Shown: piece after piece, positions 3,853 to 7,526 of the stretch | Layout: the number at the start of each line of letters is the position of its first letter | How positions within the stretch are numbered: position 1 is the first letter of the stretch | NCBI GenBank assembly: GCA_021846965.1 | Contig: JAJZWA010000027.1 | Span: 14,881 to 49,849 of the forward strand | Direction: 5' to 3' | Length of the DNA: 34,969 nucleotides | Origin: Pseudomonadota bacterium | GTDB lineage: Bacteria; Pseudomonadota; Gammaproteobacteria; Burkholderiales; Burkholderiaceae_C | Made by a program: the position numbers and the translations under genes | The notes under the pieces: generated by a model | Database searches by the model: none | Seen by the model: the letters and a program-made list of their open reading frames with translations, nothing else | What the model was told of the DNA's origin: nothing

Positions 3853-4674
3853 ATGTCGCAAGACGCGCAAGTCCGGCTTCCCAGCTGGCGAAGCATCGGC
3901 GCCGAGGTCCTTCAGTGGACCCACAACACGCTGATGATGGTGGGTTTTTTCGTGGTGGCCGCAGGCGCCTATCTGTACCTGCATCCGCAATCGGTCCTGT
4001 CCCTGGAACGCAACGTCGTGCAATGGGTTTCGGCACGCAGGATGGCGATGCAGGAACTGCAGTCGCTGGGCCAGCGCGCCGCGGACATGGGGCCGGGCAT
4101 CTCCACCGCCGACGCGGCAGTGCTCGAGCCGCAACCCCTGCCGCCGCTGCAACCGGCGCAGCTGGCCGTGGCGGACTGGCTGGCTCGCCGCTACAGCATC
4201 GCCCCCGCGGCGATGCGCGAGCTGGTGGCGGGCGCCTGGGCCGCCGGGCGCCAGGAGCACCTGGATCCGACCCTGATCCTGGCCGTGATGGCCGTGGAAT
4301 CCTCCTTCAACCCCTATGCCCAGAGCGCGGTGGGCGCGACCGGCCTGATGCAGGTGATGGCCAAGGTGCACCGCGACAAGTTCGCCCCCTACGGCGGCGC
4401 GCGGGCCAGTCTCGACCCGCTGACCAACGTGCGCGTGGGAGCCGTGGTGTTGCGCGATGCCATCGACCGCGGCGGTTCGCTGCAGGCCGGGCTGCGCATG
4501 TACGTGGGCGCTTCCTCGGTGGCCAGCGAGGGCGGTTATGCGAACAAGGTGCTGGCCGAGCAGGCGCGCCTGCAGCAGGTCCTCGCCTCGGCCCGGCAGC
4601 GGGCACCGCGCCCCATCACCTCGCGGGTGCAGACGGCCAGCAGCGCGCCGGTGCATCCGTCCTCGGCCATCTGA
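3853..4674 (+). CDS. membrane-anchored lytic transglycosylase (SLT domain)
   Basis: The product has 273 residues. A single hydrophobic segment at about 27-44 would anchor it in the inner membrane with the rest in the periplasm. Residues about 125-255 form a soluble lytic transglycosylase (GH23) domain. [16 protein letters not shown] carries the expected catalytic Glu149, and GATGLMQVM follows, as is usual in the family. Such enzymes cleave the MurNAc-GlcNAc bond and release 1,6-anhydro-muropeptides. The ATG at 3853 is chosen because AGGAGA lies seven bases upstream; the frame is open further upstream without a better start. The gene is followed by the glyA leader. I cannot assign it to a named Mlt enzyme. 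Confidence 0.9.
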
Positions 4675-4740
4675 GCTTTCCGACCCTGGTGACGGCGTGC
4701 CTTTCGGGGCTGCGCCGGGCCGGGTCTCGGTTACCATATC

Positions 4741-4871
4741 GTGGTTGCGCGACTGGCGATGAGGCCCGGCAACGCCTGATGCGGCCCCCGGGCCGCCACG
4801 GGCGTGGCCACCACGGGCCAAGGTGGGACTGACCACCAGGAAGCGCAGCCGTTGCCGCCGTTCGCCTGGGC
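4741..4871 (+). promoter_or_regulatory. ZTP (pfl) riboswitch aptamer upstream of glyA
   Basis: The elements I associate with the pfl/ZTP riboswitch occur in order. P1 is GGTTGCGC (4743-4750) pairing with GCGCAGCC (4843-4850) over all eight positions, one as G-U. The conserved GACTGGCG follows P1 at 4751-4758. The P2 hairpin is GGTGG...CCACC (4822-4837). AGGAAGC (4838-4844) stands where the consensus has a purine-rich GGGGAGC. The 3' element CCGTTCGCCTGGGC is at 4858-4871, and its CGCC (4863-4866) can pair with GGCG (4755-4758) as the pseudoknot. ZTP riboswitches sense the purine intermediate AICAR/ZTP, which accumulates when 10-formyl-THF is short, and glyA is a known target class. A weak -10-like TACCAT lies at 4733-4738. 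Unusually, about 63 nt separate GGCG from P2; see the extra arm. Confidence 0.78.
4763..4819 (+). promoter_or_regulatory. extra nested stem-loop arm inside the ZTP aptamer
   Basis: Three nested helices fit here: GGCCCG (4763-4768) with CGGGCC (4814-4819), ACGCC (4772-4776) with GGCGT (4801-4805), and GCGGCC (4781-4786) with GGCCGC (4791-4796). The arm sits between the conserved GACTGGCG and P2, where I remember the consensus having only a few bases. Confidence 0.6.
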
Positions 4872-4879
4872 TCCACCAG

Positions 4880-4915
4880 GCCGCCGGGCCGATTTGCCGG
4901 CCGGGGCGGCTGTTT
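4880..4915 (+). terminator. putative expression-platform terminator before glyA
   Basis: GCCGCC (4880-4885) pairs with GGCGGC (4905-4910), and inside it GGCCG (4887-4891) pairs with CGGCC (4898-4902). TGTTT follows. A competing hairpin GCCTGG/CCAGGC (4864-4881) would sequester the conserved aptamer 3' strand and overlaps the terminator's 5' arm, as expected of a switching platform. The U-tract is short. Confidence 0.5.
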
Positions 4916-4953
4916 CGTGCGCCTGTGCGCGCTTCGCTTCCCGGGAAACCTCC

Positions 4954-6207
4954 ATGTTCGACCGCTCCATCGCCATTGCCCAGGCCGACCCCGAGCTTTG
5001 GGCCGCCATCCAGAACGAGAACCGCCGCCAGCACGAGCACCTGGAGCTCATCGCCTCCGAGAACTACGCCTCGCCGGCCGTCATGCAGGCGCAGGGCACG
5101 CAGCTGACCAACAAGTACGCCGAGGGCTACCCCGGGCGCCGCTACTACGGTGGCTGCGAGTACGTGGACGTGGCCGAGAGCCTGGCCATCGAGCGGGTCA
5201 AGCAGCTGTTCGGCGCCGAGGCCGCCAACGTGCAGCCCCATTCCGGCGCGCAGGCCAATGAGGCGGTGTTCCTGGCCTTCCTCAACCCCGGCGACACCAT
5301 CATGGGCCTGAGCCTGGCCGAGGGCGGGCACCTGACCCACGGCATGTCGCTGAACATGAGCGGCAAGTGGTTCAAGGTCGTGCCCTACGGCCTGGATGCG
5401 CAGGAGCGCATCGACTACGAGCAGATGCACCGGCTGGCGCTGGAGCACCGGCCCAAGCTGCTCATCGCGGGGGCTTCCGCGTACAGCCTGCACATCGATT
5501 TCGAGCGCTGCGCGAGCATCGCGCGCGAGGTCGGGGCGATTTTCATGGTCGACATGGCGCACTACGCGGGCCTGATCGCCGCCGGCGTGTATCCCAACCC
5601 CGTGCCCCATGCCGACGTGGTCACGTCGACCACCCACAAGACCCTGCGCGGCCCGCGTGGCGGCATCATCCTCATGAAGTCCCAGCACGAGAAGGCCATC
5701 AACTCGGCCATCTTCCCCGGACTTCAGGGCGGCCCGCTGATGCACGTGATCGCCGCCAAGGCCGTGGCCTTCCGCGAGGCGCTGGCGCCGGAGTTCAAGG
5801 TCTACCAGCAGCAGGTGGTGGCCAATGCCCGCGCCATGGCCGATGCGCTCGCCGCGCGCGGCCTGCGCATCGTCTCCGGCGGCACGCAAAGCCACCTGAT
5901 GCTGGTCGACCTGCGCGCCAAGAACATCACCGGCAAGCTGGCCGAGTCCCTGCTGGGCCAGGCGCACATCACGGTGAACAAGAACGCCATCCCGAACGAT
6001 CCGCAGAAGCCCATGGTGACCTCGGGCATTCGCGTGGGTACTCCGGCGATGACCACGCGCGGCTTCCGCGAGGCCGAGGTGGTGCGCACCGCGAACCTGA
6101 TCGCCGACGTGCTGGAGGCGCCGGAGGACGCGGCCGTGCTCGAGCGCGTGCGCGCGCAGGTGCGCGAACTCGCGGACGCCTTCCCGGTGTACTCGCCGGG
6201 CAGCTGA
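4954..6207 (+). CDS. glyA: serine hydroxymethyltransferase
   Basis: The protein has 417 residues, the same length as E. coli GlyA. It is a PLP enzyme that interconverts serine plus tetrahydrofolate and glycine plus 5,10-methylene-THF, the main entry to the one-carbon pool. The PLP lysine is Lys229 in [15 protein letters not shown]. Other family signatures are [22 protein letters not shown] and [13 protein letters not shown]. The ATG at 4954 fits the family N-terminus (MFDRS); the frame is open upstream through the riboswitch, but those residues are not GlyA-like. The ribosome site is weak (GGGAAA). The riboswitch immediately upstream suggests control by ZTP, that is, by folate or purine status. 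The gene converges on galE with a strong GC hairpin between them. It is not followed by nrdR in this window. Confidence 0.97.
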
Positions 6208-7450: not shown

Positions 7451-7526
7451 TGGTGGGGGCACAAGGATTCGAACCTTGGACCTACTGATTAAGAGTCAGC
7501 TGCTCTACCAACTGAGCTATACCCCC
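7451..7526 (-). tRNA. tRNA-Lys (anticodon CTT)
   Basis: The 76-nt minus-strand sequence starts GGGGGTATAGCTCAG and ends GCCCCCACCA, so CCA is encoded. The anticodon loop reads CTCTTAA, giving anticodon CTT, which decodes AAG. The TTCGAAT T-loop and the seven-pair acceptor stem (one G-T pair) are intact. It appears to be a single tRNA transcription unit with its own terminator at 7359-7394. Confidence 0.97.

Follow-up and report, generated by a model that had tools for sequence, protein, structure and literature searches.

We found that the leader of glyA in the window (the whole stretch of DNA analysed, 34,969 nt) is, on sequence grounds, a ZTP riboswitch of the known pfl class, with an extra hairpin arm inserted in its aptamer between GGCG and P2. 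Riboswitches of this class turn their gene on when ZMP/ZTP signals that 10-formyl-THF is scarce. Our preferred reading, to which we give a probability of roughly 0.7, is a pfl-class ZTP riboswitch acting on glyA, with a J1/2 arm that would be mainly architectural and an expression platform that is most likely translational. The aptamer and its gene are laid out as follows:

4739-4878, plus strand: ZMP/ZTP riboswitch aptamer (RF01750), insert included, from cmscan
4741-4750, plus strand: 5' strand of P1, pairing with 4843-4852 in the Rfam alignment
4755-4758, plus strand: GGCG pseudoknot strand in J1/2, pairing with CGCC 4863-4866
4759-4762, plus strand: AUGA, the 5' junction linker from GGCG to the arm, mostly AUA in relatives
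4763-4819, plus strand: extra hairpin arm, from folding, pairing in near relatives and family-wide hairpins
4822-4837, plus strand: P2 hairpin of 5 bp (4822-4826 with 4833-4837)
4843-4852, plus strand: 3' strand of P1, from the Rfam alignment
4857-4871, plus strand: P3 stem-loop, with the CGCC pseudoknot strand 4863-4866 inside, from the Rfam alignment
4954-6204, plus strand: glyA, serine hydroxymethyltransferase, 417 aa without the stop codon

The RF01750 (ZMP-ZTP) covariance model matched 4739-4878 with 42.3 bits, exceeding the gathering cut-off of 39 by only 3 bits (E 7.8e-4 with the window as search space). The alignment covers the model from end to end and carries a 58-nt insertion behind model position 25; no other match in the genome (3.66 Mb) reaches E 0.001. 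Directly downstream lies a purine/one-carbon gene, as expected of the family: GlyA matches NF000586 at 652 bits (cut-off 335) and PDB 4mso at 700 bits. The preliminary description had proposed a ZTP riboswitch on glyA from the order of the landmark elements of the pfl/ZTP motif, and both the assignment and the elements held up, with P1 now counted as ten pairs. Shared with RF01750 are P1, the GGCG of J1/2, P2, P3 with its CGCC pseudoknot, and glyA downstream. The outer two pairs of P1 are G-U and its inner GCGC agrees with the family; a CU/GG step joins 4753-4754 with 4839-4840. The GGCG/CGCC pseudoknot and the P3 with its conserved CGCCUGGGC are both present; P3 differs from the model in being short, with a stem of only 3 bp (4857-4859 with 4869-4871), the two outer Rfam pairs being mismatches. 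The P1-P3 linker is 4-6 nt long. In RF01750, J1/2 is only a few nucleotides long, whereas the distance from GACTGGCG to P2 in the window is 63 nt; since the model absorbs the insert and the match still passes the cut-off, we treat this length as variation and not as a defining feature.

Folding of the whole 140-nt aptamer revealed no unusual stability (z -1.34; 22 of 200 shuffles as good), and the native aptamer was not recovered as its minimum-energy fold. For 4739-4965, fold energies rose from -123.7 without constraints to -112.7 once P1 and P2 were imposed and to -105.9 once P3 was imposed too; these energies exclude the pseudoknot and the ligand.

A possible promoter element precedes the aptamer:

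4732-4737, plus strand: TACCAT, a candidate for the -10 promoter element, 11 nt ahead of the P1 strand when this is counted as 8 bp

Of 143 distinct leaders, 120 have a TANNNT no more than 20 nt ahead of the P1 strand, at a spacing of 10 nt in 50 and of 11 nt in 46. Because this motif lies mostly 10-11 nt upstream across leaders, transcription probably starts near the 5' edge of P1. A scan with consensus promoters found no -35/-10 pair upstream of P1.

In the window, the arm is built from four helices (4763-4767/4815-4819, 4768-4770/4807-4809, 4772-4778/4799-4805 and 4781-4786/4791-4796), with a five-base bulge, ACCAC, at 4810-4814. The stretch 4763-4820 folds at -41.1 kcal/mol (z -3.4), which 1 of 200 shuffles equalled; with flanks (4757-4825), z was -2.3 and 4 of 200 shuffles were as good. 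Among seven near relatives, 97.1% of the cells in P1, arm and P2 pair, compared with 31-45% with slid partners. L050 was left out of this count because its arm tip was misregistered in the MAFFT alignment; its arm still forms a single hairpin, and the base of that hairpin is the same. Neither L044 nor L040 was used for pair counts.

Covariation in these seven relatives was thin: two pairs changed on both sides, both in the tip helix of the arm, and 35 of 500 column shuffles reached that number. The outer arm helices hardly vary, and 42 of 500 shuffles equalled the percentage paired together with the covariation score. Hence, with outer helices that barely vary, covariation within the window's own clade speaks neither for nor against the arm.

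Across the parsed loci, a single hairpin formed in 118 of 119 distinct inserts, and the two ends were joined by a pair in 117 of the 119, compared with 49.1 expected from dinucleotide shuffles. The folding z of these inserts averaged -2.33, and 83 of the 119 reached p 0.05. We also used a test that is free of folding, in which four columns at a set spacing from GGCG were compared with four at a set spacing from the P2 core GTGG (three of the 119 inserts were dropped, their P2 start being a misfit to the anchor). All four basal pairs were present in 72 of 116 distinct inserts, compared with 25.3 when partners were permuted (sd 3.5, maximum 40, 2000 permutations). Sliding the fixed columns by one base lowered the count to 6 and 2. 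With 62 divergent representatives, 32 had all four basal pairs, compared with 10.4 permuted (sd 2.5, maximum 19); the permutations of both sets ignore descent. Since pairing in the fixed columns exceeds that of permuted partners, the base of the arm is, by this test, kept paired while the sequence turns over.

These results bear out the extra structured arm inside the aptamer that the preliminary description had drawn, through the stable fold of 4763-4820 and through hairpin closure and basal pairing across relatives. Covariation, which it had named as the check on the arm, came out in part: it is thin in the near clade, whereas basal pairing in fixed columns beats permutation across distinct inserts.

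The flanks of the arm recur. With boundaries taken from minimum-energy folds, AUA precedes the stem in 66 of 117 distinct closing arms, and GA or GAC follows it in 75 of the 117. The peripheral hairpin would have grown from the 5' side of J1/2, between GGCG and P2, and P1, arm and P2 would meet in a three-way junction, joined by short linkers that in relatives are mostly AUA and GA. Because length, sequence and loop drift while the base stays paired, we infer that the arm is mainly architectural; linkers that recur while the arm sequence is free likewise suggest architecture rather than recognition. Such an arm may hold or stack the junction and set the timing of co-transcriptional folding. 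The idea that it offsets a short P1-P3 linker was rejected, since arm and linker lengths are uncorrelated over all 146 distinct loci (rho -0.05, p 0.57); the rho of -0.25 among 120 arm-bearing loci (p 0.005) is uncorrected for kinship and was not used.

RF01750 was matched in 22 of 28 genomes of the genus and 234 of 299 of the family, in 17 of 200 genomes of an order sample, in 2 of 274 of a class sample (both of the window's family) and in 38 of 398 of a phylum sample, each of the five sets including the window's own genome. A motif parser read 153 of 169 loci, and an arm was scored where an insert of 15 nt or more separates GACTGGCG from P2. The 16 unread loci stand outside all counts; they are L153, L165 and 14 named glyA loci, for which a missing riboswitch is indistinguishable from parser failure.

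Such inserts occur in 63 of the 66 named glyA leaders that could be parsed (80 named loci were examined, the top 80 among at least 594 when ranked for GlyA similarity and not for riboswitch score), in all 23 same-genus loci, window included, in 28 of 29 further family loci plus 3 of 3 later family loci (the 30 family loci being the best-scoring RF01750 matches of the family), and in 9 of the 14 loci parsed from the order's other families. In contrast, only 4-6 nt separate GACTGGCG from P2 in all 18 parsed loci outside the order, which come from one phylum sample with 30 loci taken from its best-scoring matches; the 63 nt of the window are mostly one hairpin. The kinship split of the last 35 loci was read manually from sample tables. 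Named and unnamed loci overlap (L053 and L048, for example, share one insert), and the group counts are of loci and not of independent events.

The arm had been presented as an oddity of this one RNA, and this did not survive, as inserts stand at the same spot in most parsed Burkholderiales loci. Since most of the related riboswitches examined in the order carry a hairpin there, the arm is, across these loci, a lineage variant of Burkholderiales rather than a one-off. Since the 119 distinct inserts measure 19-73 nt, with a median of 36, the 63 nt of the window are long but not extreme; the parser misread two inserts, giving 45 nt for L051 (63 by another parse) and, with P2 misplaced, 19 nt for L094. 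Nine members of the order lack the arm (L025, L105, L119, L131, L148, L158, L162, L163 and L168). Hence, inside the order, the arm would be dispensable to the ZTP class or would have a history of repeated gain or loss.

Although their aptamer is complete, seven same-genus matches out of 23 (L046-L052) reach only 34.5-38.6 bits and so fall short of the RF01750 cut-off (39). This suggests that long arms cost model score and that members may go unannotated.

In the translational platform that we prefer, the 3' strand of P3 would pair either within the ligand-bound aptamer or with the glyA ribosome-binding site, and glyA would be switched on once ZMP/ZTP signals the shortage of 10-formyl-THF. The element concerned is:

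4940-4946, plus strand: CCCGGGA, with a Shine-Dalgarno-like GGGA 7 nt before the ATG, in a possible duplex with 4865-4870

In the window, CCUGGG 4865-4870 can form six pairs with CCCGGG 4940-4945 at -11.1 kcal/mol, but 59% of shuffles are as good, which is chance level. In 45 of 79 distinct leaders, GGCAG lies within 16 nt from CGCC, and 32 of the 79 combine it with CTGCC in the last 26 nt before the ATG. The mean energy of the duplex between the P3 strand and the ribosome-binding site was -10.93, compared with -10.33 permuted (sd 0.18; lowest of 300, -10.77), in a permutation that mixes lineages, so that relatedness may explain part of the set effect; singly, only 7 of the 79 leaders reached p 0.05, with about 4 expected by chance. 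In L085 both strands have changed (GGTAG with CTACC) and still pair, and the pairing of L104 reaches eight pairs with a bulge. These results suggest that many relatives can pair the 3' strand of P3 with the ribosome-binding site, as a translational ON switch would. Because its own pairing is at chance level, the translational reading of the window draws on these relatives and on the absence of a convincing terminator.

The same aptamer could instead act on transcription, and two further hairpins are concerned:

4864-4881, plus strand: GCCTGG/CCAGGC hairpin, the competitor proposed earlier, from manual reading of leader alignments
4879-4911, plus strand: GC-rich hairpin, weakly terminator-like, from minimum-energy folds and a terminator scan

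Here, the hairpin at 4864-4881 would capture the P3 strand when ligand is missing, the hairpin at 4879-4911 would terminate, and ZMP would block termination. This has a precedent in the pfl ZTP riboswitch of Clostridium beijerinckii, which uses displacement of the P3 strand into a terminator in the passages on its switching in PMC10085676 and PMC10687018. Among five close leaders, folding yielded the downstream hairpin in three (the window, L046 and L048) and missed it in L047 and L049, and the terminator scan gave one weak site (4894-4909), where 0.3 are expected by chance. The hairpin is followed by GUUUC, with only three consecutive U. As for the capture stem, its six pairs are intact in two of the eight closest leaders (the window and L051), five of the eight have one mismatch, and L050 lacks it. 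CGCCGGG and no U-tract follows it, so that a stem competing with the aptamer and leading directly into a U-tract, as a terminator ON switch has, was not found. The transcriptional switch that the preliminary description had seen in GCCTGG/CCAGGC therefore fares poorly: the stem exists but is poorly conserved and has no U-tract directly after it, and the case for switching through it is weak. Many relatives can moreover pair with the ribosome-binding site instead, and we regard control of transcription as doubtful for the window.

Elsewhere in the order, a third kind of leader has a competing hairpin, GGCAGCC...GGCTGCC, with a U-run farther down (for example, L071, L075 and L086). Together with L126, these three are long glyA leaders in which GGCAGCC...GGCTGCC overlaps P3; a U-rich run stands about 10 nt beyond it in L071, L075 and L086. 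Since this group has both a competing hairpin and a U-run, platforms would differ within the order, and these long-leader glyA genes possibly have a different, attenuator-like platform.

Returning to the arm, free drift in sequence and length would also be expected of a neutral hairpin, mobile or a repeat, inserted into a junction that tolerates it. The genome has no second full copy, and a dispersed repeat was rejected on this ground (the next best match covers 41 of 63 nt at 78%, E 0.009). A single insertion point across parsed loci and the maintained basal pairing also argue against neutrality, which we consider unlikely. The leader had no match on plasmids in PLSDB at E 1e-5.

A conserved docking loop in the arm was ruled out, as none appears among the loops of the distinct inserts, where no loop sequence is conserved and the 37 tetraloops include 1 GNRA and 3 UNCG; this lack disfavours a sequence-specific binding partner. 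Hence, although the arm is present in most parsed Burkholderiales loci at a constant insertion point with recurrent flanks, a functional third domain (a second ligand, a protein or a tertiary docking site) that alters affinity or cooperativity is very unlikely, given these loops, arm lengths of 19-73 nt and nine order members listed without an arm.

A broader reading is that the RNAs form a distinct Burkholderiales three-way-junction subclass of ZTP riboswitches, in which the arm would be a third domain under selection, retuning co-transcriptional folding or ligand affinity, along with a shift of control from terminator to ribosome-binding site. We offer this tentatively and think it improbable.

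The C. beijerinckii pfl ZTP riboswitch consists of a P1/P2 and a P3 subdomain linked by a J1/2-L3 pseudoknot in the structural passages of PMC10687018, and the window has the same two subdomains and the same pseudoknot between J1/2 and L3. The variable, hairpin-bearing part of the C. beijerinckii RNA is the P1-P3 linker in the corresponding passages of PMC10687018 and PMC10085676; in contrast, the linker of the window is short and its extra hairpin is in J1/2. The platforms differ too, as that of C. beijerinckii is a terminator, whereas pairing with the ribosome-binding site is more likely in the window. The ZTP aptamer models in those passages (PMC10687018, PMC10085676) put the variable region between P1 and P3; a lineage with a hairpin inside the pseudoknotted junction in most parsed members provides natural constructs for testing the effects of peripheral helices on aptamer folding. 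Among the ZTP/pfl papers listed (at most 20 per search), no title or abstract opening describes such an arm, the defining 2015 paper (Kim, Nelson, Breaker) and the 2019 strand-displacement paper being outside that scope.

A betaproteobacterial counterpart is Hsnc029 of Herbaspirillum seropedicae, an RF01750 match of 59.3 bits and 100 nt that, like the window's, lies ahead of glyA (PMC7011215). The passage on it in PMC7011215 gives it as an Rfam match and mentions no insert; its length of 100 nt would fit a short arm.

Besides the J1/2 arm, many relatives have a long P1-P3 linker. In ten loci (L065, L067, L072, L078, L088, L093, L098, L111, L115 and L127), P2 carries an enlarged loop of about 24-42 nt; such loops often resemble a further hairpin, additional to the J1/2 arm. 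Multiple RF01750 matches occur in genomes G258 (two) and G795 (three), and the parsed copy of G258 is L025, which is without the arm.

Upstream of the riboswitch, the protein encoded at 3853-4671 (plus strand) has weak matches to lytic transglycosylases, with 39.2 bits against MltC, below the family cut-off. Beyond glyA, a tRNA gene lies at 7454-7526 of the window on the minus strand (RF00005, 76.9 bits).
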